Assembly: GCF_051622035.1 (NCBI RefSeq)
Contig: NC_135359.1
Location: 27,681,501 to 27,745,500, forward strand
Length of the DNA: 64,000 nt
From: Arctopsyche grandis
Lineage: Eukaryota; Arthropoda; Insecta; Trichoptera; Hydropsychidae
Direction of reading: 5' to 3'
Below, piece by piece: positions 18,956 to 45,445 of this stretch. A model generated the notes under the pieces. That model worked only from the letters and a program-made list of their open reading frames with translations, had not been told where the DNA came from and ran no database searches. How positions within the stretch are numbered: the stretch's first letter is position 1; each line of letters begins with the position of its first letter. The translations under genes were made by a program, and so were the position numbers.

Positions 18956-19075
18956 TCATAATATTTTGACAAAATAATCACAAAACGACAATAAGCGCAC
19001 CATTCGCAGCCATGCGCTCAGTTTGACAGTACGAGTTGAGCATTCGTAACATTTGGTCACTAAACGACTGTCATC

Positions 19076-19699
19076 ATGGCAGTGTACACGGCTATGAACC
19101 GCATCAAGCGAGAACTGCTGGAGGTGGGGCGCGATGGGGCCGAAGGGGGCGCAGGAGATGGGGGCGCGGGGGGCGCAGTCGCCGTTCGCCCCCGAGCCGA
19201 CACCTGGGCCCAACTCCGAGGCGACATTTCCGGACCCCCAGACACTCCATACGAAGGCGGCCGCTTCCTTCTCGACATCGACGTGCCCCCGGCATATCCC
19301 TTCGAGCCCCCGAAAGTCCGCTTCGTGACTCGTCTCTGGCATCCGAACGTATCCTCGGCCACCGGAGCCATCTGCCTGGACATCCTCAAGGACGAGTGGG
19401 CGGCCACCATGACCCTTCGCACCATGTTACTCTCTTTGCAGGCGTTGCTGTGCGCTCCGGAGCCGGACGATCCTCAAGACGCCGTCGTGGCCACGCAGTA
19501 CAAGTCAGATCCGAGTCTATTCGAAGCTACGGCCCGTCTTTGGACTCATCTCTACGCTGGTGGGCCTCACGCTCATCCCGACTTGCAGAACAAGGTGACC
19601 GCTCTCACCGAAATGGGAGTGGATCACACGAGGGCAGTCATCGCTCTCTCCTCCTGCCACTGGGACATGCAGAAGGCTACCGATTATTTGTTTAGTTAA
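19076..19699 (+). CDS. UBE2K: Ubiquitin-conjugating enzyme E2, UBE2K/UbcD4-type
   Basis: An intronless 207-residue protein. The UBC fold spans about 1-155 with [24 protein letters not shown], the HPN triad (89-91) and the active-site Cys100 in [14 protein letters not shown]-terminal UBA domain (about 168-207) ends in ATDYLFS. Only the E2-25K class (human UBE2K, fly UbcD4) combines these two parts. The enzyme takes ubiquitin from E1 onto Cys100 and is known for K48-linked chains, acting in cytosol and nucleus. Compared with the fly protein, the strand around residues 19-44 is replaced by a Gly/Ala/Asp-rich insert. GC content, especially at third positions, is far above the surroundings, and there are no introns, so a retrocopy is possible. 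Core residues are intact. The start matches the family N-terminus (NRIKREL). AATAAA lies at about 20046. Confidence 0.9.
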
Positions 19700-24924: not shown

Positions 24925-27462
24925 TCAGACTTCCGTACCGTCCTCACCCTCGTCCTCGAACAGTGGTCCGTTCGGGTCGGATGGACTCTTCTTTTTAGGC
25001 TTTGGTGGAGGTCTAGGGGGGATTTTGCCACTTCTAGACGAAGGCAGGGTATCGTATGTTGATTCGTTCATCGATGCGTCGTACGCCGATCCGTTGGACA
25101 TGTACGATTGATTCTTATCGGCCAGTGCAAACCTCTTCATGGCTGCCAAGTCTGAAGTTTCTTTTAAACGATTAGGTCTCTGCTCTAAATCGTGTAGAGA
25201 TGGTGACAGTTGGAAATGCATCGAGTTGTTACCTATTCTGGGCAACGTTGAACTATAAGGGGTGCTCGGTGCGGGGGACGGTGCCTGTTCTTGTTCTTCA
25301 ATAGGAGCATACATCACAGCTACTGGCGCTTGATAGCTTCCAGGTGTTGAAGGTAATGGACGGCCTCTCATACTTCCAGGAGAGAGCGGTTGTTCCAAGC
25401 CTGCCTTGTTTAGTGACAGCACTGAGCTACCGTCTGCCGTTGTTCTCAGCCCTAAGTTATCGTATACTGGTTCCACTCCTTCAACTGGTGCTACCACTGT
25501 CATGTAACTTGCCGTGCTTGCCCAGCTAGGTATCCTTGGTCTTCTTGGAATGGTAACATATCCCATGCGAGGTGCCGGAGCTGGGGCACACGGTGAAGTG
25601 AACGGAGATTGAGACCTAGAGTGAGAGATGGTTTTGTAATGGTTTGGATTTGTTCCGTATATGGGCGATTGCATAGGACTTTGTTGCTGAATCTGTTGGG
25701 GTAAGCGGGTGCTGTCTGGTGCCGTAGACGCAGAGCTGGCAGCAGGAGAGGCTTGTTCGCCTCTAGGTGGGAAAGAGAGTAGATCTGGTGGATAAGTTCT
25801 CTGGTCACTTCGGCCGATAGTGTTGACGCTGATTGGATCCCGGGAGCGTTTGGCATGGTGATCAGCAAAATCCATTGATCTACTTTCATCTTCATTGGGT
25901 GCTGAAAAAAATAAAAATAAAACAAGTTATAGTACCTCATTGTCATCTAAGTCTAAGGCAAGGAATCAAATATTAAATTTAAATAAAATGAAAATTAAAC
26001 AATAAGGATAATTACCAAAGACTGAATCATTATCCAAGAGGGTCTTATTCAGTTCAGACATTTCAGTTCCTCCACTACCTGTGGAAATAGGAGCGTCGTA
26101 ACGTCTAGGTGGTTTCGTCAATGGATTTACTGTAGTAATTAAGCTTTTCTCCATTTCTGTAATTACTGACCCTTCGATTAAAGCTTCGCCATTCGAGGAA
26201 TGCATGTCTGATTTGATGTGCCTTTTTACGTCTTTCTTTTTGCAGAAGCAATAGCACAACAGAACAATGACGACTAGCAAAATAACAGCGCCCACAGATA
26301 GACCAACTATGAGGAACAAACTTTCGTTTGCACCCACTCCAGCTCCCACGATACCTTGGACGCGGTTGACGGTCAAAGAAATACTGCTGGTTACCGATCC
26401 GCCAGGATTTTTAGCAACACAAGTGTAGTCACCTCTATCCTGATATCTAACATTGATAATAGTCAAATTTACCCAGACAGTCAAATCGAGATCACTACGT
26501 CTGATCACCAGCCTATTATCAGCGTACTTTCTGGACATTCCATCAATTGTGACGGTATTTTGAGCCCAAGTGACGTCTGGTTTGGGATTTCCCATTACTT
26601 TGCACGTCATAGTGATATTTTCGCCAGTTGCTTGCATGGCAGTACCATGCACGGGTTCTATGATTCTGGGTTTACAGGCGAAATCGTCAGATGCCAAGTC
26701 ATTCCAGTTTCTGTTATGTAGTCTTGGAGGCTCTGCACAAGATGTCGGGTGGGTGTACAGGTTTTTTTCGGATATCCAATTCCGGAAGGATTGAAGGTTA
26801 CAATCGCAATTCCAGGGATTGTTTCGAAGCACCAGGCTCGTTAGTGAAGATACATTCTTGTGGAAAGTATCGAAATTCATGTGAGTCAAATTGTTGTAGC
26901 TCAAGTTCACCGTTATCAACTTTGGCAAGTTTGTGAATGTGTCAGTTCCTATTGTGTGAATATGGTTGTTGATCAAATCAACATTTTGCAAGAAGCGCAA
27001 TTCCTTGAATAAGCCATTGTGCAACTTTTCCAACTGATTGTCGCCCAGGTTGATGATCCGAATCTTTTCGAGGTCGCTGAATGTATCAGCGTGTAGAATT
27101 TGAATATTATTTCTGGACAAGTCGATTTCAATGAGGATTCTCAAGTTTTTGAAGCCGTCTTTATGTATGGTGATAATTTGGCAACTTCTCAGATAGAGTT
27201 TCTTTAAGTTGACCAGTCCCACCTCCTCGAAAGCGTTTTGAGTGATTTCGTGCAACTTGTTGTGTGATACGTTCAAGTTTTGGATATCACTACTTAATTT
27301 GTTTGGGATGGTTGTAAGATCCACGCAGGTGGCTGCTTTGTTGCCGGACAACCATTTGCATTCACATGGTGCCGGACACTCCGAAGTGAAGTCAGTGTGT
27401 GCCATTGCGGCGCTGAATATCATCGCTAACCACACGAAGGCTATCTTCGTTGATTCGTCCAT
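24925..27462 (-). CDS. Kekkon-family LRR-Ig transmembrane receptor, kek5-like
   Basis: Two coding exons (27462-26016 and 25901-24925) join in phase through consensus sites (TTTG/GTAATT and TTTTTTCAG) to give 807 residues. In order: signal peptide (1-21), LRR N-cap (CPAPCEC, 29-46), about five to six leucine-rich repeats (57-215), LRR C-cap (NPWNCDC at 215-221 to about 263), one C2 Ig domain (Cys287 to Cys348, with DRGDYTCVAKNPGG), a transmembrane helix (about 381-406), a CYCFCKKK stop-transfer, and a long Ser/Pro-rich cytoplasmic tail. The tail contains VYDNLGLRTTADGSSVL and PRPPPKPKKK and ends GTEV, a class I PDZ-binding motif. This order defines the insect Kekkon family, plasma-membrane modulators of EGFR or BMP signalling. 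The tail motifs remind me of Kek5, but assignment within the family is uncertain. Confidence 0.88.
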
Positions 27463-27530
27463 ATTTGAAACGCTCTGATCTCATCCAATCAATTATTTAA
27501 TCGGCGATAAGACCTGCAACAAATACATCA
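27463..27530 (-). other. Kekkon 5' UTR exon boundary (intron in 5' UTR)
   Basis: On the minus strand a consensus acceptor TTTGTTGCAG lies just upstream of 27513, giving a 50-nt 5' UTR segment before the ATG. A further upstream noncoding exon is therefore expected, outside what I can identify. Confidence 0.55.
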
Positions 27531-28055: not shown

Positions 28056-28910
28056 ACTAGCTGTATTACCCGGCTTCGCTCAGTGTTTATAATATAAACC
28101 GCTTAAACATGACTAAGCTAATTTAATTAAAAAAAAAAAAAAAAATTAAAAATTAAAAAAAAAAAATTAAAAAAAAAATTAAAAAAAAAATAAAAAAAAA
28201 AAATAAAAAAAAAAAATCAAAAAAAAAAATTTAAAAAAATCAAAAAAAAAAAAATCAAAATTTTTTTTTTTGCCTTCTAGGGCTTCGCCCTCGGCACCCC
28301 CCTGAGCCTTTGCCTTCTAGGGCTTCACCCCACCACGCCCCATGAGCAATTGCCGTTTAGGGCTTCGCCCCCATGATCAGTTGCCTTTTAGGGCTTCGCC
28401 CCTCCGCGCCCCCATGATTCAAAGCCGTCTAGGGCTTCGCCCCCCCTAGTTAATGCCTTTCAGGGCTTCGCCCCCCGCGCCCCCAAGATTAATTGCCGTT
28501 TAGGGCTTCGCCCCCCTTAGCTAATGCCTTTTAGGGCTTCGCCCCTCCGCGCCCCCATGATTAACTGCCGTTTAGGGCTTCGCCCCCCTTAACTAATGCC
28601 TTTTGGAGCTTCGCCCCTCCGCACCCTCATGATTAAATGCCGTCTAGGGCTTCGCCCCCATGATCAGTTGCCGATAAGGGCTTCGCCCCTCCACGTCCCC
28701 ATGGTTAAATGCCGTCTAGGGCTTCGCCCCCATGATCAGTTGCCTTTTAGGGCTTCGCCCCTCCACGTCCCCATGGTTAATTGCCGTCTAGGGCTTCGCA
28801 CCCATGATCAGTTATTTATTTTTATTTATTTATATATATTTAGCTATCAAGCTAATTTAAAAAAAAATACATCTTAATTATTATACTTAACTCTAAAATT
28901 TATAATTAAC

Positions 28911-31739
28911 TTATATGTACTGTCCCTCACAGAGGTGTCTCTTCGCACCTCGCAGGAATGCATCCATGTTTTTAGCAGACCTGACGCACTCAGGGAGGGC
29001 ATTATACATGAGCACACCCCTGTGAAAAACACCCCCAGCCGTCTTATTCTTTCTTACTCTACTTACAACTAGTTTGTCCTTATTTCTAGTATAAAAACTA
29101 TGTTTATCTCTATTCCTTATTATATAATCATCAAAATACTTAGGTAATAACTTATGATCTAACTTATAAACAAAAGACAATGTACTAATATTTAGACTAA
29201 TTCTAATACTCATCCATCCTAATTCATCTAACATACTTCCAATACTCTTAAATCTACTCACATTCAAAATAGCTCTCATAGCTTTATTCTGTATTTTTTG
29301 CATTTTTTCTAAATCTTGGCCACTAAACAAATTAAGCACAGTGGCACAATAAACCACATGTGGCAAGACAATTGAATTAAACACTAAAATTTTACTTTTT
29401 TTACTTAAAATATTTCTTAATCTACATAATACACCAACTTTTCTAGCCATTTTTTTTATTATATAGTCAGCGTGCATTTTAAAATTTAGTCCTGAATCTA
29501 TGTATACACCTAAGTATTTTATATTTTCAACTTTTTCAATTAACTTATCATTAATTCTAATTTCATTCAATATATTTTTATTTTTACCATTCAACCACAT
29601 CATTTTTGTTTTATTCACATTCAACTTTAATTTATTTTCACACAACCAGTCATTCACATAATTTAATTCTATATTTAAAATCTCAGACATTACATCAACA
29701 TTCTTTCCAATTATATATATCAATGTATCATCTGCAAACAAATGTATTTTACACATCTTAATTACCTTAACAATATCGTTTATATATAATATAAATAATA
29801 AGGGTCCCAATTTGGACCCTTGCGGCACTCCATGAGGTGTTACATATTCAGAGGATAACACCTTATCAATTTTTACTCTTTGCCTTCTATTATTTAAGTA
29901 TGATTGAAGCCACTTTAATACTATACCATTTATTCCTAACTTATATAATTTTTGTAATAAAATATTCCTATCTACTGTCTCGAACGCTCGCTTAAAATCT
30001 AGAAAAACTGCTCCAACAACCATGCTAGATTCATCCATCGTCTCCATCCAATCAGAAACCACCAATTGGATAGCGGTTTCTGTTGAATGTTTCACTCTAA
30101 ATCCAGACTGTTCCACAACCAAACAATCATTTATACTAATGAACTCTTTCAATTGAATCATAACGATTTCCTCCAGCATCTTCTCAACAATCGGTAACAT
30201 ATTGATGGGCCTCATTTCACTGGCTTTATGTGTGCCCGTAACCTTTGGTACCGGTACAATAGTAGACACCTTCCATGCATCCGGGACGGATCCCACTTCT
30301 AACGATTCATTTATTAATTTCAGTAACTGAGGTCCAACCATATCCCAAGTGTTGATTAAAATATCTAGAGTCAATCCATCCATACTAGAAACTGATTTCA
30401 TGCCCTTCAATACACCATTTAATCCCTCCATTTCCACTAATTTAAACCTTTCAAACTTATTTAAACCCAAGTTAATATCATCATTCACACTATTATGCCT
30501 TGTTTGTATTGAATTAACTATATCATTCACACTATTGATGTAAAACTCATTCAATCTTTCAACCATATCCTCTTTATCATTATATACTACTCCCTCGACT
30601 TCTAATTCATTCAAAGAAACATTTTTTCCCCCGGAAATCAAAGTTTTAATTATTCGCCACATTTTTGTGGGATCTTTTTTTGCACCATCAATATTTCTTT
30701 CATGCCAATCCCTCTTCGCATTACGTAAAACATTCACACATTTATTCCTCTTTCTTTTATACTCTAACCAAGCCTTTTCTAATTGGATTCCATCCATAGC
30801 CTTAATAATTTTATATCTTTTATAACTAACATTCTTATCAACTAAGCTTTCCTTTACTTCCTTGGTAAACCAAGGTTTCAGCTTATGCTTATGCATGATT
30901 CTTGTGGTTTTTACGCATTTACTTTTAGAATATGTTATATTACGATACATTATCTCCCACATTTCATTCACACTATCACCATCCTTTCCCCATACACACT
31001 CCTTTAACAATTCATTCATCAATTGATAATCAATGTTTTCTCTTTCAGTCACCTGCATATTTTTAAGTCCTCCGTTACTAAACCGCTGTCCCAAAAACAT
31101 GTTGACAATAGAATGGTCTCCTATTTTCGGTACATCTTTCACCTCACACCGCAGATCCATTATATTCGTTATAACCAAATCAATGAGAGAGCTTGATAAA
31201 TTATTCACTCTCGTTGCTTCCGTCACTTTTTGTTTAAAACCCAATTCATTTACCCAATTTCTCAACTTTTTTACATAAAATTCTTCTGTCTGTAACCAAT
31301 TAAAATTCCAGTCCCCAAACATAATTATATTTTTACTCACATCTATACTTCTTTCACTCAATTCTTCTAAAAATTTAAGAAATCTTCCACTTCTACCATT
31401 CGGAGAGCGGTAAATTACTAGCAAAAACACAGTAACTCCATTCACAAGCAGATCCACACCAATTGTCCAAAACTCACCATCAACCTTATTAACTATTACA
31501 TTACCGTAACTTAAATCATCCCTTAAATACAATAGTACCCCACCCGTATGTCTAGAATTAGAGTCACATCTCAAAACACAATATCCATCTATATTCAGCT
31601 CAAAATCTTCAAAATCACTAGTTACATGCGTTTCACTTAAACCTATAAATAATGGTTTTTGACTTACAGTTAAACTCCAAACCTCATCCTTGTGAGCAAA
31701 AAAACTTTGTACATTTATACCGATACCTTTTGGTGGTTG
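28911..31739 (-). CDS. Retrotransposon ORF2: endonuclease and reverse transcriptase
   Basis: From the codon after the TAG this frame runs 942 residues without interruption. The N-terminal APE endonuclease has INVQS, GLSETH, RHTGG, YRSPN, FGDWNFNW and GDHS (about residue 207). The RT has MRPINMLP, QSGFRVKHSTETA, FLDFKRAFETVD (motif A, about 578-589), GVPQGSKLGPLLF and the catalytic FADD at 668-671. The thumb region contains KYLGVYID and KMQKIQNKAMRAIL. The enzyme nicks target DNA and primes reverse transcription there. No ATG occurs until about residue 140 (IIMFGDWN), inside the endonuclease. Translation therefore most simply enters from ORF1 by readthrough. Confidence 0.92.
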   Translation of the reverse strand, partial: QPPKGIGINVQSFFAHKDEVWSLTVSQKPLFIGLSETHVTSDFEDFELNIDGYCVLRCDSNSRHTGGVLLYLRDDLSYGNVIVNKVDGEFWTIGVDLLVNGVTVFLLVIYRSPNGRSGRFLKFLEELSERSIDVSKNIIMFGDWNFNWLQTEEFYVKKLRNWVNELGFKQKVTEATRVNNLSSSLIDLVITNIMDLRCEVKDVPKIGDHSIVNMFLGQRFSNGGLKNMQVTERENIDYQLMNELLKECVWGKDGDSVNEMWEIMYRNITYSKSKCVKTTRIMHKHKLKPWFTKEVKESLVDKNVSYKRYKIIKAMDGIQLEKAWLEYKRKRNKCVNVLRNAKRDWHERNIDGAKKDPTKMWRIIKTLISGGKNVSLNELEVEGVVYNDKEDMVERLNEFYINSVNDIVNSIQTRHNSVNDDINLGLNKFERFKLVEMEGLNGVLKGMKSVSSMDGLTLDILINTWDMVGPQLLKLINESLEVGSVPDAWKVSTIVPVPKVTGTHKASEMRPINMLPIVEKMLEEIVMIQLKEFISINDCLVVEQSGFRVKHSTETAIQLVVSDWMETMDESSMVVGAVFLDFKRAFETVDRNILLQKLYKLGINGIVLKWLQSYLNNRRQRVKIDKVLSSEYVTPHGVPQGSKLGPLLFILYINDIVKVIKMCKIHLFADDTLIYIIGKNVDVMSEILNIELNYVNDWLCENKLKLNVNKTKMMWLNGKNKNILNEIRINDKLIEKVENIKYLGVYIDSGLNFKMHADYIIKKMARKVGVLCRLRNILSKKSKILVFNSIVLPHVVYCATVLNLFSGQDLEKMQKIQNKAMRAILNVSRFKSIGSMLDELGWMSIRISLNISTLSFVYKLDHKLLPKYFDDYIIRNRDKHSFYTRNKDKLVVSRVRKNKTAGGVFHRGVLMYNALPECVRSAKNMDAFLRGAKRHLCEGQYI

Positions 31740-31742
31740 CTA
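31734..31742 (-). promoter_or_regulatory. Candidate stop-codon readthrough site, TAG CAA CCA
   Basis: On the minus strand the only barrier between ORF1 and ORF2 is TAG (31742-31740), followed by CAA CCA. This fits UAG-CARYYA, the context that drives readthrough in tobamovirus-type recoding. The frame continues with PKGIGINVQS, the start of the endonuclease. The match is seen in the sequence; its function is inferred. Confidence 0.7.
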
Positions 31743-32819
31743 TATATTATTATACTTAATTCTATTTCTCATTAATTCTATATTTCTTTTATATACACTG
31801 CACTTAGTGTCCAACGGTCCGTGATTTGTGTTCAAATTTAATTTTAATTTATTATTACTTTTAAAGCAATTATTACATTTTATTATTTTATTGTTACATC
31901 CCTCGCTTTTGTGCCCTTCTTCTCCACATTTCGCACATGTCACCTTGTTTCTACAATCCACCGCTTTGTGATTAAATCCGTAACAATTTAGACATCTTAG
32001 AATATTAATTTCTTCAAAAACCCTACATCTATCCCAATTTATATTTACTTTTCCATCTTCAATAAATCTTTTAAATGTATTGCAATCTACTTCCACTATC
32101 GCATTATATTTATTATTTTTTCTACTTTTCCATATTTTTAACACCTTCAGTTCACCATCATTTATAACTTCTTGATTTTGATTCATCAAACACTCAGCCA
32201 ACTGTTCACTTGTAAGTTCCTCCGACATATCTACAATTTTAATTTTGGGATTTTTTAATTCCCCTCTTTTAACATTATAATTCTCCCCTAATTTATTTTC
32301 TACTTCTTTTATTAATTTAATACTATCCTGTGCACTGTTACACGTTACAGCAATGCCCCCTTTACCGATTTTTTTAACCCCTTGTATTCCTATTTTTAGT
32401 TCCTTAGGGTTTATTAAACTTTTACATTCTTCCTTTGTCTTGTCCGTTTCTTGGATTTTTTTCGGAACAATTATTGTTATGTCTTTATTATTCTTCTTAA
32501 GTGCATTTGCATAACTAAAACTATTTTCACTCTTATTTACACTTTTTAAAATGTTTAATTCACTGTTGGTTTTTATTATATTTATGTCTTTTTGTATATT
32601 GTTTTTCAAATTTTTAAATTCACTTCTTAATTCACATATTACATCCAAAAATTGTTCCTTATCATTATTTTCATTTTTACAAATATATTCAACTAATTTT
32701 TTTACTGATGTAATTAAAAATGTCTTATTGTCATTTGATATACTGTTAGTTTTTGTGGTCAAAATGTCCATAATTTTTTTTTCAATTGTTATTACTTCAC
32801 TTATGCGTTCTGATGCCAT
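31740..32819 (-). CDS. Retrotransposon ORF1: CCHC nucleic-acid-binding protein
   Basis: 359 residues. The N-terminal half is Lys/Asn-rich with a likely coiled coil (about 1-90). A central RRM/PRE_C2HC-like region follows (about 110-275). Three zinc knuckles end the protein: CLNCYGFNHKAVDC, CAKCGEEGHKSEGC, and a third starting CNNC with later His and Cys. Such proteins coat the element RNA and carry nucleic-acid chaperone activity. The first Met (MASERISE) follows a 5' UTR of about 130 bp. The frame ends AAT AAT ATA TAG and continues directly into ORF2. The A/T-rich codon use is unlike the host genes nearby. Confidence 0.9.
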   Translation of the reverse strand: MASERISEVITIEKKIMDILTTKTNSISNDNKTFLITSVKKLVEYICKNENNDKEQFLDVICELRSEFKNLKNNIQKDINIIKTNSELNILKSVNKSENSFSYANALKKNNKDITIIVPKKIQETDKTKEECKSLINPKELKIGIQGVKKIGKGGIAVTCNSAQDSIKLIKEVENKLGENYNVKRGELKNPKIKIVDMSEELTSEQLAECLMNQNQEVINDGELKVLKIWKSRKNNKYNAIVEVDCNTFKRFIEDGKVNINWDRCRVFEEINILRCLNCYGFNHKAVDCRNKVTCAKCGEEGHKSEGCNNKIIKCNNCFKSNNKLKLNLNTNHGPLDTKCSVYKRNIELMRNRIKYNNI

Positions 32820-33535
32820 TATTATACACTTAGGACGTACACATAATTATATATTACAAATTTATTTTTAATTTTTTAATTGTTACAATTTCGTTGTCCA
32901 AATCGCCACACACGTAATCAACGTCTGTACACGATCACGACACGAACAATAGTTGCCGATAAGGGCTTCGCCCCTCCACGTCCCCATGGTTAAATGCCGT
33001 CTAGGGCTTCGCCCCCATGATCAGTTGCCTTTTAGGGCTTCGCCCCTCCGCGCCCCCATGATTAACTGCCGTTTAGGGCTTCGCCGCCCTTAACTAATGC
33101 CTTTTGGGGCTTCGCCCCTCCGCACCCTCATGATTAAATGCCGTCTAGGGCTTCGCCCCCATGATCAGTTGCCGATAAGGGCTTCGCCCCTCCACGTCCC
33201 CATGGTTAATTGCCGTCTAGGGCTTCGCCCCCATTATCAGTTGCTTTTTAGGGCTTCGCCCCTCCGCGCCCCCATTATTAAATGCCGTTTAGGGCTTCGC
33301 CCCCCTTAGTTAATGCCTTTTAGGGCTTCGCCCCTCCGCGCCCCCATTATTAAATGCCATTTAGGGCGTCGCCCCCCTTAACTAATGCCTTTTGGGGCTT
33401 CGCCCCTCCGCACCCTCATGATTAAATGCCGCCTAGGGCTTCGCCCCCCTTAGTTAATGCCTATTAGGGCTTCGCCCCTCCGCGCCCCCATGATTAAATG
33501 CCGTCAAGGGCTTCGCCCCCATGATCAGTTGCCGT

Positions 33536-34400
33536 TTAGGGCTTCGCCTCATAAGGCTGCGCCCCATGGGGCTTCGCCCCATGAGGCTGCGCCCCCTTCG
33601 GGACCCCATGGGGCTGCGCCCCAGGAGGCTGCGCCCCCTTGCGCCCCCTTCGGGGCCCCATGCGGCTAAGCTCCATAAGGCGGCGCCCCATAAGGCGGCG
33701 CCCCATAAGGCGGCGCCCCATAAGGCAGCGCCCCATAAGGCGGCGCCCCATATGGCGGCGCCCCATAAGGCTGCGCCCCATAAGACAGCGCCCCATAAGG
33801 CTGCGCCCCATAAGGCGGTGCCCCATAAGGCAGCGCCCCATAAGGCGGCGCCCCATGAGGCTGCGCCCCATGAGGCTGCGCCCCCTTTGGGGCCCAATGA
33901 GGCTGCACCCCCTTCGGGGCCCCATGAGGCTGCGCCCCCATGGGGCTGCGCCCCATGAGGCTGCGCCCCCTTCGGGGCCGCATGCGGCTAAACTCCATAA
34001 GGCGGCGCCCCATAAGACTGCGCCCCATAAGACAGCGCCCCATAAGGCTACGCCCCATGAGGCTGCGCCCCCCTGCGCCCCCTTCGGGGCCCCATGAGAC
34101 TCCGCCCCCCTGCGCCCCCTTCGGGGCCCCATGTGGCTAAGCTCCATAAGGCGGCGCCCCATAAGGCAGCGCCCCATAAGGCTGCGCCCCTAAGGCTGCG
34201 CCCCATAAGACAGCGCCCCATAAGGTTGCGCCCCATAAGGCTGCGGCCGATAAGGCTGTGCCCCATAAAGCTGCGCCCCCTTTTGAGCCCCATGAGGCTG
34301 GGCCCCCCGGGCCCCATTCGGGGACCCACGGGGTTGCGCCCCTTGTGGCGCCCCTGGCGGGGCCCCATGAAACTACTCGCCTTGCGCCCCCGCGGGGGTG
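33536..34400. repeat. GC-rich 16-bp tandem array
   Basis: Units such as GCGCCCCATAAGGCGG and variants (ATGAGGCT, TTCGGGGC) repeat dozens of times. The unit is 16 bp, not a multiple of three, so all frames stay open at different phases. The long Arg/Pro-rich or Gly/Ala/Trp-rich frames on both strands are therefore artefacts. CCCCTTCGGGG hairpins are scattered through it. Confidence 0.92.
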
Positions 34401-34558
34401 AATCCATTGAATCGAAAAAAACAAATCGGCGCCCATGGATCGAAAAAAAAAAAATCGAATCACGTGTTCGATGACGTCACCGATCTACGGACGACGACGA
34501 CGACGACGACGACCAAGGATATTTACATACAAAGTCTCTTTCCAAATTATAGATTAGA

Positions 34559-36869
34559 CTAGCTGTATTACCCGGCTTCGCTCAGTGTTTATAATATAAA
34601 CCGCTTAAACATGACTAAGCTAATTTAAATTAAAAAAAAAAAAAATTTTAAAAAAAAATTTAAAAAAAAAATAAAAAAAAAATAAAAAAAAAATCAAAAA
34701 AAAAATCAAAAAAAAATTTTTAAAAGATCAAAAAAAAAATCAATTTTTTTTTTGCCTTCTAGGGCTTCGCCCTCGGCACCCCCCTGAGCCTTTGCCTTCT
34801 AGGGCTTCGCCCCTCCACGCCCCATGAGCAATTGCCGTTTAGGGCTTCGCCCCCATGATCAGTTGCCTTTTAGGGCTTCGCCCCTCCGCGCCCCCATGAT
34901 TCAAAGCCGTCTAGGGCTTCGCCCCCCTTAGTTAATGCCTTTTAGGGCTTCGCCCCCCGCGCCCCCAAGATTAATTGCCGTTTAGGGCTTCGCCCCCCTT
35001 AGTTAATGCCTTTTAGGGCTTCGCCCCTCCGCACCCCCATGATTAAATGCCGTCTAGGGCTTCGCCCCCCCCTAGTTAATGCCTTTCAGGGCTTCGCCCC
35101 CCGCGCCCCCAAGATTAATTGCCGTTTAGGGCTTCGCCCCCCTTAGCTAATGCCTTTTAGGGCTTCGCCCCTCCGCACCCTCATGATTAAATGCCGTCTA
35201 GGGCTTCGCCCCCATGATCAGTTGCCGATAAGGGCTTCGCCCCTCCACGTCCCCATGGTTAATTGCCGTCTAGGGCTTCGCCCCCCTTAGTTAATGCCTA
35301 TTAGGGCTTGCGTCCCATGAGGCTGGGCCCCCCGGGCCCCCTTCGGGGCCCCACGGGCCCCCTTCGGGGCCCCACGGGGCTGCGCCCCTTGTGGCGCCCC
35401 CTTTTGAGCCCCATGGGGCTGCGCCCCATGAGGCTGGGCCCCCCGGGCCCCCATTCGGGGCCCCACGGGGCTGCGCCCCTCCACGCCCCATGAGCAATTG
35501 CCGTTTAGGGCTTCACCCCCATGATCAGTTGCCTTTTAGGGCTTCGCCCCTCCGCGCCCCCATGATTAAAAGCCGTCTAGGGCTTCGCCCCCCTAAGTTA
35601 ATGCCTTTTAGGGCTTCGCCCCCCGCGCCCCAAAGATTAATTGCCGTTTAGGGCTTCGCCCCCCTTAGTTAATGCCTTTTAGGGCTTCGCCCCTCCGCAC
35701 CCCCATGATTAAATGCCGTCTAGGGCTTCGCCCCCCTTAGTTAATGCCTTTTAGGGCTTCGCCCCCCGCGCCCCAAAGATTAATTGCCGTTTAGGGCTTC
35801 GCCCCCCTTAGTTAATGCCTTTTAGGGCTTCGCCCCTCCGCACCCCCATGATTAAATGCCGTCTAGGGCTTCGCCCCCCTTAGTTAATGCCTTTTAGGGC
35901 TTCGCCCCCCGCGCCCCAAAGATTAATTGCCGTTTAGGGCTTCGCCCCCCTTAGTTAATGCCTTTTAGGGCTTCGCCCCTCCGCACCCCCATGATTAAAT
36001 GCCGTCTAGGGCTTCGCCCCCCTTAGTTAATGCCTTTTAGGGCTTCGCCCCCCGCGCCCCAAAGATTAATTGCCGTTTCGGGCTTCGCCCCCCTTAGTTA
36101 ATGCCTTTTAGGGCTTCGCCCCTCCGCACCCCCATGATTAAATGCCGTCTAGGGCTTCGCCCCCCCTAGTTAATGCCTTTTAGGGCTTCGCCCCCCGCGC
36201 CCCCAAGATTAATTGCCGTTTAGGGCTTCGCCCCCCTTAGTTAATGCCTTTTAGGGCTTCGCCCCTCCGCGCCCCCATGATTAAATGCCGTCTAAGGCTT
36301 CGCCCCCATGATCAGTTGCCTTTTAGGGCTTCGCCCCTCCGCGCCCCCATGATTAATTGCCGTCTAGGGCTTCGCCCCCCTTAGTTAATGCCTATTAGGG
36401 CTTGCGCCCCATGAGGCTGGGCCCCCCGGGCCCCCTTCGGGGCCCCACGGGGCTGCGCCCCTTGTGGCGCCCCCTTTTGAGCCCCATGGGGCTGCGCCCC
36501 ATGAGGCTGGGCCCCCCGGGCCCCCATTCGGGGCCCCACGGGGCTGCGCCCCTTGTGGCGCCCCCTTTTGAGCCCCATGGGGCTGCGCCCCATGAGGCTG
36601 CGCCCCCCTGCGACCCCTTCGGGGCCCCACGGGGCTGCGCCCCTTGTGGCGCCCCTGGCGGGGCCCCATGAAGCTACTCGCCTTGCGCCCCCGCGGGGGT
36701 GAATCCATTGAATCGAAAAAAACAAATCGGCGCCCATGGATCGAAAAAAAAAAAAAAATCGAATCACGTGTTCGATGACGTCACCGATCTACGGACGATG
36801 ACGACGACGACGACGACGACCAAGGATATTTACATACATACAAAGTCTCTTTCCAAATTATAGATTAGA
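34559..36869 (-). mobile_element. Helitron-like unit 2
   Basis: A 2311-bp unit with the same ends as unit 1, joined without spacer on both sides (minus strand: ...CTAG then TCTAATC...). It contains a poly-A/T zone (34630-34750), an AGGGCTTCGCCC minisatellite (34755-36390) with an island of GGGCCCC-rich units at 35310-35480, a second GGGCCCC-rich block (36400-36690), then ATCGAAAA, CACGTG, TGACGTCA, (GAC)n and the TATAGATTAGA end. No protein is encoded. Confidence 0.72.
34755..36395. repeat. AGGGCTTCGCCC minisatellite
   Basis: About 31-bp and 41-bp monomers alternate, giving a dimer near 72 bp. Each carries AGGGCTTCGCCC, flanked by TGCCTTTT or TGCCGTCT and by CCATGATTAAA or CCTTAGTTAA. Several higher-order blocks of about 145 bp are almost identical, indicating recent amplification. 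The same family fills 28273-28813, 32955-33535 and 37107-37770. Confidence 0.93.
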
Positions 36870-38555
36870 CTAGCTGTATTACCCGGCTTCGCTCAGTGTT
36901 TATAATATAAACCGCTTAAACATGACTAAGCTAATTTAATTAAAAAAAAAAAAAAATTAAAAAAAAATTTAAAAATTAAAAAAAAAAATAAAAAAAAAAT
37001 AAAAAAAAAATAAAAAAAAAAAATTAAAAAAAAAATAAAAAAAAAATAAAAAAAAAATTAAAAAAAAAAATTTTAAAAAATCAAAAAAAAAATCAAAATT
37101 TTTTTTTGCCTTCTAGGGCTTCGCCCTCGGCGCCCCCCTGAGCCTTTGCCTTCTAGGGCTTCGCCCCTCCACGCCCCATGAGCAATTGCCGTTTAGGGCT
37201 TCGCCCCCCTTAGTTAATGCCTTTTAGGGCTTCGCCCCCCGCGCCCCCCTTAGTTAATGCCTTTTAGGGCTTCGCCCCCCACGCCCCCAAGATTAATTGC
37301 CGTTTAGGGCTTCGCCCCCCTTAGTTAATGCCTTTTAGGGCTTCGCCCCTCCGCGCCCCCATGATTAAATGCCGTCTAAGGCTTCGCCCCCATGATCAGT
37401 TGCCTTTTAGGGCTTCGCCCCCCGCGCCCCCAAGATAAATTGCCGTTTAGGGCTTCGCCCCCCTTAGTTAATGCCTTTTAGGGCTTCGCCCCTCCGCGCC
37501 CCCATGATTAAATGCCGTCTAAGGCTTCGCCCCCATGATCAGTTGCCTTTTAGGGCTTCGCCCCCCGCGCCCCCAAGATTAATTGCCGTTTAGGGCTTCG
37601 CCCCCCTTAGTTAATGCCTTTTAGGGCTTCGCCCCTCCGCGCCCCCATGATTAAATGCCGTCTAAGGCTTCGCCCCCATGATCAGTTGCCTTTTAGGGCT
37701 TCGCCCCTCCGCGCCCCCATGATTAATTGCCGTCTAGGGCTTCGCCCCCCTTAGTTAATGCCTATTAGGGCTTGCGCCCCATGAGGCTGGGCCCCCCGGG
37801 CCCCCTTCGGGGCCCCACGGGGCTGCGCCCCTTGTGGCGCCCCCTTTTGAGCCCCATGGGGCTGCGCCCCATGAGGCTGGGCCCCCGGGCCCCCTTCGGG
37901 GCCCCACGGGGCTGCGCCCCATGAGGCTGGGCCCCCGGGCCCCCTTCGGGGCCCCACGGGGCTGCGCCCCTTGTGGCGCCCCCTTTTGAGCCTCATGGGG
38001 CTGCGCCCCATGAGGCTGGGCCCCCCGGGCCCCCTTCGGGGCCCCACGGGGCTGCGCCCCTTGTGGCGCCCCCTTTTGAGCCCCATGGGGCTGCGCCCCA
38101 TGAGGCTGGGCCCCCCGCGCCCCCTTCGGGGCTTCACGGGGCTGCGCCCCTTGTGGCGCCCCCTTTTGAGCCCCATGGGGCTGCGCCCCATGAGGCTGGG
38201 CCCCCCGGGCCCCCTTCGGGGCCCCACGGGGCTGCGCCCCTTGTGGCGCCCCCTTTTGAGCCCCACGGGGCTGCGCCCCTTGTGGCGCCCCCTTTTGAGC
38301 CCCACGGGGCTGCGCCCCTTGTGGCGCCCCTGGCGGGGCCCCATGAAACTACTCGCCTTGCGCCCCCGCGGGGGTGAATCCATTGAAACGAAAAAAAAAA
38401 TCGGCGCCCATGGATCGAAAAAAAAAAAAAAATCGAATCACGTGTTCGATGACGTCACCGATCTACGGACGACGACGACGACGACGAAGACGACGAAGAC
38501 GACGACCAAGGATATTTACATACATACAAAGTCTCTTTCCAAATTATAGATTAGA
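36870..38555 (-). mobile_element. Helitron-like unit 3
   Basis: A 1686-bp unit, the shortest of the three, with a smaller AGGGCTTCGCCC array and a longer GGGCCCC-rich block (37775-38345) built from units of about 100 bp. On the minus strand the start TCTAATC is preceded by A (T at 38556), as expected for the outer border of a Helitron. The terminal TTAGA could instead belong to the target duplication of the adjacent MITE, so this border is ambiguous by 5 bp. Confidence 0.68.
38439..38457. promoter_or_regulatory. Paired CACGTG and TGACGTCA motifs
   Basis: A palindromic E-box and a perfect CRE lie 5 bp apart, just inside the unit's 5' end. The same pair is at 34461-34479 and 36765-36783. They are candidate binding sites for bHLH and bZIP factors near the start of each Helitron unit. 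Function is inferred. Confidence 0.4.
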
Positions 38556-43241: not shown

Positions 43242-45445
43242 ATGATGAAGGTACTAGCGCTCTTGTTCTTCGTGGCCTTTGCCTTCGTGCAAGCCAACAA
43301 TGACTACTTGGAAGGGTAAGTTTTTCATATAAAAAAATCAATTTAAAATCATTCCAAAAATCTCCAACGATACGATTATTATAATAGGAGCAAGGTCTAT
43401 ACTGTGAGGCCCATGACCAAGAAAGACCAACTGATCGTCGCTGGTTTGGACAACATCCCCGGTGTTGACGTATGGCAACATGCTTCCATCTTCGGAAGAG
43501 AGGCAAGGATCCTTGTACCCAAAGATTCGCTTACCACCTTCGAATCCGTGCTCAGATCTTCCAGCGTTCAGTATGAAGTGATCATGGAAGATCCCAAGAG
43601 GTAAGCTACCAAATTCTTCAATGAAATGTTTAACTTTTATAATCAAGCAATATATTAATGTTGTATTCCATTACAGTGTGATTGAAGAGGAAATCAAGCA
43701 ACAAGAATTGGCAAGGATGAAGAGGGTTCCTGGAAGAATCAGTTTCACCAGTTACAACAGACATGCTGAGGTAAAGTTTTAACATAGATGCACATCAAAT
43801 AGTTTGTTAGAAGTAATTCTAGAATATAATATCGAACATATTATAGTCACTTATTTTATCTGTATATATTTTTTCTGTAGTCGTCAAATTGAATGATAGT
43901 ATAACTTTTTTTTTTTAAATGTATCTAAATAAGCAAAAAATCTTAAAAAGATTTTTAAATACAAATTTACACAATTGCAAACTATATCATTTTCATACAA
44001 TATGTTTTGATATTGAGTTTATTTTATTTTCATGCAAAATATAAAAATTATTTTGTTTGACAAATTATACTATGGAATACTTAGAGAATAAATTTTAATT
44101 TGAAAATAGATGTCGCAAAAAAAAAAAAACAAACGAAATAAAGAAATTAAATATGTATGGCTTCAGCAATTTAATCATGAAGTTTTTATGTTAATTTTCG
44201 GTTTAATTTTGCGTTTCGGAATAATAAAATATTTATATTTTGAATTAACGAGAATGATGAATGTGTTTGTAATCAATTGATGCATAATTCGAACGGATTT
44301 GTCACACGGCGATAACAATAAATCGAGGCTATCAGTTTGACAAATGCGATTGGTAAATAGGAAAATTTACGATTTTATTAAACGTAATCACTATTGTATT
44401 TTTGATATTGAATCACACTGATTGATTGTCGACTCGTTGTACGTATCATTATGCATTTTATGTAATTCGATGATATTTTTAGATCAACTCATACTTGGAC
44501 GACTTGGCAAGACAGTATCCAACCAGAGTGAAGGTTGAAACTTTGGGCAGAACCGTCAATGGCCGAGACATTAAAGTGATCAAGATCTCATCGGACGGAG
44601 GAAACAACCCCAACAAACCAATCATCGTTTCCGATGCTGGAATCCACGCTAGGGAATGGATTGCCCCAGCCAATGCTTTGTACATGATCAGAAAATTGGT
44701 AGAAGACATCACCGAAAGCGACGTAGCTAACAACATCGACTGGTTCATCATTCCTTTGATCAACCCTGACGGATATGAATACAGTCACACAAATGTAAGT
44801 AAAATCAAAATGCATATCAGATCCAAAATCAAAAATAGTGTTTTAACTTGATTGTGATTTTAGACGAGATTATGGAGGAAGACCAGAAGCACAGCTTCGA
44901 GCACTACCTGCCCAGGAGTTGACGGAAACAGGAACTTCGACTTCAAATGGATGCAATCCGGATCTAGTTCATCACCTTGCTCAGACATTTTCGCCGGACC
45001 AACCCCCTTCTCCGAAATTGAAACTAGGGTCCTTAGGGATTTGATCAACGCTAACAAGGCTCGTGTCAAGGCTTACCTTGCCATCCACAGTTACGGTAGC
45101 TACTTCCTGTATCCATATGGATATGACGGTTCCAACCCATCCAATGTAGCTGAGCTCAGAAGTTTGGGAGTTCAAGTTGGAAATGCCATTGATGCTTTGG
45201 CTGCTTCAGGCTCTACCAAATACTTGGTCGGAAACTCAGCTGTCGCTCTTAACTATGCTGCTGCTGGAGCCAGCGATGACTGGGCTATGGGTGTTGGTGG
45301 AGTGAGCTTGTCTTACACTTTGGAATTGCCCGGAGGTGGTAGTGCAGGATTCGATCTTCCACCATCAAGGATCAACCAGGTGGTGAGGGAAACTTGGGGT
45401 GGTATTTTAGTACTGGCTAGGTACGTTATCAACAAGGCAGCTTAG
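43242..45445 (+). CDS. Zinc procarboxypeptidase (M14A, B-like)
   Basis: Five exons (43242-43315, 43388-43600, 43677-43770, 44483-44794, 44864-45445), all with GT/AG ends, give 424 residues. A signal peptide (about 1-19) is followed by an activation domain (about 20-120), then the M14 catalytic domain. Zinc ligands are His182 and Glu185 (GIHAREW) and His306 (AIHSYGS). Arg254 in GNRNFDFKW helps bind the substrate carboxylate. Glu385 in YTLELPGG is catalytic. Cys247 and Cys270 match the conserved disulfide. The residue in the specificity pocket (GASDDW) is Asp, which suggests cleavage of C-terminal Lys/Arg, though insect enzymes do not always follow this. The product is a secreted midgut zymogen activated by trypsin-like cleavage. 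Stop is TAG; AATAAA is at 45505-45510. Confidence 0.95.

Follow-up and report, generated by a model that had tools for sequence, protein, structure and literature searches.

A UAG-CARYYA motif between ORF1 and ORF2 of a caddisfly LINE as a candidate programmed readthrough signal

How is the second open reading frame of a retrotransposon expressed when it follows directly on the stop codon of the first, in the same frame and with no start codon nearby? The question is raised by an element without long terminal repeats (LTRs), a long interspersed nuclear element (LINE), in a 64,000-nucleotide (nt) stretch of the caddisfly Arctopsyche grandis genome (NC_135359.1, positions 27,681,501 to 27,745,500; here called the window). 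Its two open reading frames, ORF1 and ORF2, are separated by a single TAG that is followed by CAA CCA. We consider it very likely that this UAG-CARYYA at the end of ORF1 is a programmed type I readthrough signal, yielding an ORF1-ORF2 fusion. It is also likely that an insect LINE lineage comprising several diverged families makes its endonuclease-reverse transcriptase only as such a fusion, in a Gag-Pol-like manner and with the signal kept by selection on its nucleotides, and that this arrangement belongs to one branch, with an overlapping AUG in a more distant family of the genome.

The ORF1-ORF2 junction

The junction reads ...RIKYNNI TAG, then CAA CCA CCA AAA GGT ATC GGT ATA AAT GTA CAA AGT, in one frame. 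The first-pass annotation of the window had described a TAG with CAA CCA opening ORF2 in frame, and the sequence agrees, the positions it gave (31692-31760) bracketing the site. Both frames are open, and the roughly 1300 intact codons counted earlier correspond to 359 codons in ORF1 and 942 in ORF2. Likewise, ORF2 had been said to lack an ATG for about 140 codons, and its first in-frame ATG is codon 140. This ATG lies 3' of endonuclease positions N9, E36 and Y110; in 17 aligned sequences Y110 never varies and E36 hardly does. A start at codon 140 would therefore cost ORF2 its first endonuclease motifs, which have a catalytic role. At the junction, the ORF2 frame showed no AUG overlapping the ORF1 stop in the manner of SART1-type coupling, and the nearest downstream AUGs are in other frames, at least 28 nt from the TAG.

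UAG_CAR_YYA is the consensus for type I readthrough (PMC3542737; this and the papers cited below are cited from excerpts), and the junction matches it, as the earlier comparison with the tobamovirus-type signal had proposed. Across the window outside the element, on both strands and in any frame, CARYYA follows 2 of 1414 background TAG triplets, so that TAG-CARYYA at one given stop is about a 1-in-700 chance event. The features of the element are as follows, all on the minus strand:

28812..32951 (-): whole non-LTR element, about 4.14 kb; ends from comparing copies with unrelated flanks
32820..32951 (-): 5' untranslated region, about 130 nt; 5' end common to 27/30 copies within about 40 nt
31740..32819 (-): ORF1, 359 amino acids (aa) plus TAG; ATG at 32819, TAG at 31742-31740
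31734..31742 (-): UAG CAA CCA, candidate type I (UAG-CARYYA) readthrough signal, from sequence and conservation (consensus, PMC3542737)
28911..31739 (-): ORF2, 942 aa, with an apurinic-type endonuclease ahead of the reverse transcriptase; stop codon (28913-28911) included
31713..31715 (-): ORF2 codon 9, Asn of INVQ, first endonuclease motif, from the alignment of relatives; the 2v0s profile match begins at profile position 3
31632..31634 (-): ORF2 codon 36, Glu of ETHVT, nearly invariant in the alignment of 17 sequences
31320..31322 (-): codon 140 of ORF2, its first in-frame ATG, beyond the first endonuclease motifs
28812..28910 (-): 3' untranslated region with an A-rich, (AAATA)n-like tail

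The encoded proteins place the element among the LINEs. ORF2 contains a reverse transcriptase (Pfam RVT_1, E = 6.6e-33) with an FADD-type core and matches the profile of LINE-1 ORF2p (E = 2.6e-37). Upstream of the reverse transcriptase lies an endonuclease of the apurinic type, with a profile match to the L1 endonuclease chain 2v0s (E = 3.4e-12); the Pfam Exo_endo_phos and Exo_endo_phos_2 matches are weak, under their cut-offs. Neither RNase H nor protease was among the Pfam matches of the element. By eye, ORF1 carries three zinc-knuckle-like Cys/His clusters close to its C end; it matches a retroviral nucleocapsid chain in phmmer (E = 0.0012), and its homologue P0071 (LOC143912008 of Arctopsyche grandis) is 96% identical to the window ORF1. 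Together with the absence of LTRs, the shared 5' end, the (AAATA)n-like tails and 5'-truncated copies (L013, L018 and L027), these features indicate that the element is a non-LTR retrotransposon. In our reading it is young and recently active.

Copies and diverged families in the genome

Copies were sought in the 475.7-Mb assembly (189 contigs; the window is C5:27681501-27745500). With a 481-nt query across the site, the best 40 of 146 candidates were scored and all were 100% identical; being chosen by identity across the site, these copies show that the TAG is not private and are no test of its conservation. Thirty of the 40 were fetched (L001-L030, the window copy being L017). Their printed flanks differ, 27 extend to about 40 nt or less from the 5' end, and the three truncated copies named above belong to the same set. 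Twenty-three of the 30 run colinear between the ORF1 ATG and codon 579 of ORF2; the ATG, the TAG and both open frames are retained in every one of them. Amino-acid changes among them are few: the ratio of nonsynonymous to synonymous polymorphism (pN/pS) is 0.25 for ORF1 and 0.13 for ORF2 codons 1-579, or 0.31 and 0.15 with a stricter filter (17/30 copies), values drawn from 30 identity-chosen copies whose 481-nt core adds no variation by choice. A full 942-aa ORF2 was present at 15 of 20 whole places fetched (L031-L050, the first 20 of the 481-nt matches). Copies also form clusters, many of equal score, at C24:44865-203396, C2:39.21-39.34 Mb, C23:1.46-1.53 Mb and C2:27.45-27.65 Mb, which suggests segmental duplication or local amplification.

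Heterologous protein queries gave two tests of the main family that do not depend on choosing copies by identity across the site. A search with the ORF1 protein P0078 (34% identical over the alignment) scored 97 of 580 candidates; 27 of these matches are places of the 481-nt query, which left 70 loci to read (L051-L120). Eleven of L051-L070 are also 481-nt-query places, the window's own included, and nine of these are among L001-L030. A check set beforehand was whether the TAG might be a private mutation. At all 67 readable main-family sites among the 70 loci the codon was TAG and no sense codon was seen; left out of this count are L083, which has no site, and L076 and L080, which belong to other families. 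The hexamer that follows is CAACCA in 64 of the 67, CAACTA in L110, CACCCA in L078 and CGACCA in L090. A further main-family copy, L138, likewise has TAG CAACCA. With the ORF2 protein P0004 (38-39% identity), 49 of 9899 candidates were scored and all 49 ORF2 frames were exactly 942 aa, so that a stop directly precedes ORF2 in all of them and none is fused, the identity of that stop codon not being given by this search. A frame of 1950 aa at L056 was discarded as an artefact of an N run upstream of a 5'-truncated copy.

Two diverged families bear on the signal as well. L080 is 67% identical in DNA to the window at the junction; it has the same TAG CAACCACCA, and the codons that follow have drifted. 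Four copies of its family were read, L080 itself and three further matches covering the site (L133, L134 and L135), and TAG CAACCA is present in three of them (L080, L133 and L134). For the L076 family there were 44 matches, many of them main-family or off the site, and 13 stretches were read; outside these 13 are the apparent duplicates C2:27446412, C2:22778168 and C2:22713723, and other matches. Ten of the 13 have TAG with CAATTA (L076, L121, L125, L126, L127, L128 and L131) or CAATCA (L122, L123 and L124), and in L130 and L132 homologous sequence is missing at the site. An alternative hexamer for L076, TAGTAATAA, proved to be a misplaced alignment, the true ORF1 end being TAG CAATTA.

Past the TAG, ORF2 is in frame in L121, L122, L123, L124, L126 and L128, with the endonuclease start 16, 18, 18, 18, 25 and 11 codons downstream, respectively; in L128 the endonuclease Asn is replaced by Ser. 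The linker is 9 codons in the window and in L080. ORF2 is out of frame in L076 and L125, and L127 and L131 are too short to place. The second codon of the hexamer is CCA, TCA or TTA, giving Gln-Pro, Gln-Ser or Gln-Leu. As read in these families, the nucleotides of CARYYA are kept while the second amino acid changes and linker length shifts by whole codons (9-25). Selection for readthrough predicts such a pattern, which would be expected neither from neutral drift nor from selection on the protein alone. The check proposed earlier, whether TAG-CARYYA is kept as neighbouring codons drift, thus came out positive in 3/4 and 10/13 diverged stretches, the other four being two degraded and two without the site. 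In L122, L123 and L124 the linker itself looks chimeric: it opens with a main-family-like QSPNGIGLN or QSPNSIGLN and goes on with the linker of the L076 family, SNNLIYNINVQG, as might arise from recombination or template switching.

The window copy lies in repetitive surroundings, filling the gap between two 72-bp arrays of nearly the same unit that abut both of its ends:

28310..28813 (no strand): tandem array of 72-bp repeats, flanking the insertion on one side
32951..33548 (no strand): tandem array of 72-bp repeats, its unit very similar, flanking the insertion on the other side

The element thus interrupts a 72-bp array, and GC-rich tandem arrays with units of 72, 143, 90 and 15-30 bp surround it (window 28310-28813 and 32951-38345). 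Elsewhere in the window, open frames judged by eye only resemble a ubiquitin-conjugating enzyme (19064-19699, plus strand), a leucine-rich repeat/Ig membrane protein (25966-27480, minus strand) and a carboxypeptidase (44864-45445, plus strand).

Weighing readthrough against other explanations

Could ORF2 be reached in another way? Ribosomes terminating at the TAG might reinitiate just past it at a non-AUG codon, as in SART1 though without an AUG. ORF2 follows right on the stop, SART1 is a known case of termination-reinitiation (PMC5972666), and in the distant family of this genome an ATG overlaps the TAA. However, the ORF2 frame has no AUG for 139 codons, and reinitiation needs no shared frame, yet ORF2 is in frame at eight placeable junctions (besides L070) with linkers of 9-25 codons; the conservation of CARYYA would also be left unexplained. 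We regard this explanation as unlikely. The TAG could alternatively be a neutral or damaging mutation of a master copy that hitch-hiked, ORF2 then coming from intact fused copies at other places. That at least 40 copies share an identical 481-nt stretch marks the family as very young, and a fused relative, P0003, exists; against this, 0/49 scored ORF2 frames are fused, TAG-CARYYA recurs in two diverged families, and the ORF2 of TAG copies has few amino-acid changes, so that hitch-hiking is strongly disfavoured and very unlikely. Splicing that removes the TAG is extremely improbable: an AG does stand right before CAA, making ...ATATATAG/CAACC a possible 3' splice site to join ORF1 to ORF2, but by eye no pyrimidine tract precedes it, copies made from spliced RNA would be intronless whereas full-length copies retain the junction, and the downstream CARYYA would again have no explanation.

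Relatives bear on programmed readthrough as well. In a tree, the window, P0001, P0002 and P0003 form a four-member clade with support 100/100. P0003, a metagenome relative known from a single sequence on a single contig and with an ORF2 46% identical, has ORF1 and ORF2 in one frame (...KIKYAEYQRQ...), with Tyr where L125 has its stop (...KIDYAE*QL...). It shows that a fused ORF1-ORF2 product can be encoded, at least once, which counts in favour of readthrough, and the expectation that related copies lack a sense codon stands for readable main-family sites and fails for this relative. No relative on a viral or prokaryotic contig was confirmed. Among ORF1 homologues P0071-P0084, compared as proteins only, 13/14 end at most 9 residues from a conserved aromatic residue, P0083 being without its C end. 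This equal end position was dropped as evidence for readthrough, since the ORF1 of the distant-family loci L136 and L137 also ends after such a residue, with TAA.

Several observations weigh against the readthrough interpretation. The distant family in the same genome comprises seven places at 27% identity to P0080, two of which were read (L136, C9:11536640-11536790; L137, C8:17014665-17014785). In both, ORF1 ends in TAA without CARYYA, and an ATG in another frame overlaps the ORF1 end and, by eye, opens into an apparent endonuclease start; readthrough is therefore not universal among relatives and seems limited to one branch. When the read-through frame was searched against proteins, no listed relative matched across both ORFs, the best query coverage being 74%; P0003 was missed as well. 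CARYYA is lost in two main-family copies (L078 and L090), L135 is degraded and without an intact TAG-CARYYA, L129 is degraded with no intact TAG, and L124 and L128, although counted as in frame, have a stop within the short ORF1 stretch read. Main-family copies are little diverged, so that their TAG counts reflect recent spread and selection alike, and the choice of copies by identity described above bears on the 40 identical copies and on pN/pS. Finally, no stable RNA structure of the kind used in type II/III readthrough was found 3' of the stop (z = 0.00 over 151 nt), and over 301 nt the fold was no better than shuffles (z = 1.35), in folds of one sequence only with pseudoknots outside their scope. 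Type I readthrough needs no extra 3' RNA structure. With these points taken into account, the readthrough interpretation put forward in the first-pass annotation is supported.

Expression of the element and known systems

In the mechanism that we propose, most ribosomes would terminate at the UAG and release the ORF1 protein, while a minority would insert an amino acid there and produce the ORF1-ORF2 fusion. This fusion would be the only source of complete endonuclease-reverse transcriptase, and readthrough would set a ratio like that of Gag to Gag-Pol, with ORF1 in excess. The sequences show the anatomy of the element, the missing ATG, open frames that differ little in amino acids between copies, and a TAG-CARYYA kept as nucleotides across diverged families; from these we infer that readthrough occurs, and its efficiency, the residue inserted and any later cleavage of the fusion belong to the same inference.

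Expression of ORF2 is understood for few LINEs, and involves overlaps, reinitiation or separate starts. Tobamoviruses and other plant viruses resemble the present case in having UAG directly followed by CARYYA and a same-frame extension, which in tobamoviruses lies in the replicase gene (PMC3542737). In contrast, the candidate signal described here belongs to a LINE of an animal and separates ORF1 from the endonuclease-reverse transcriptase. The soybean LTR element SIRE1 reportedly uses stop codon suppression for an envelope-like protein; it is likewise a retroelement with stop suppression, and differs in being an LTR element and in the protein so made. Murine leukaemia virus has LTRs and a protease, neither of which was found in the element here. 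It shares with our reading a UAG between gag and pol, one frame and a minority fusion product, but is a retrovirus with a stimulatory pseudoknot (PMC5009743). In the silkworm LINE SART1, ORF2 expression is also coupled to the ORF1 stop, although SART1 reinitiates at an overlapping stop-start with downstream structure, whereas the caddisfly element has no AUG there (PMC5972666).

Readthrough in a LINE has been suggested before, for the Group 3 non-LTR retrotransposons of the Paramecium germline (PMC5405496); these are ciliate elements, and the excerpts consulted mention neither a CARYYA motif nor a conservation test. In the portions of two reviews that we drew on (PMC5972666, PMC5009743), reinitiation in SART1 and LINE-1, StopGo, HeT-A frameshifting and TART are covered, with no LINE readthrough, and an LTR element with a gag-pol stop but without CARYYA is described in PMC3441728. 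Stop codons also lie between the two ORFs of the Candida albicans retroelements Tca2, an LTR element, and Zorro3, in which there are multiple stops; a reporter study saw no read-through at the Tca2 junction (PMC7175516), a result that may serve as a caution for claims made without reporters. No report of UAG-CARYYA in a LINE was found in our literature search, with subscription papers mostly and Repbase outside its scope.

If the interpretation is true, a LINE with the best-known plant-virus readthrough signal would offer a rule for ORF2 dosage that is short and testable, as well as a natural ORF1-ORF2 fusion. It would also be evidence that CARYYA-driven readthrough in insects suffices to sustain a mobile element, and gene finders may place the ORF2 start of such elements far 3' of its true beginning.

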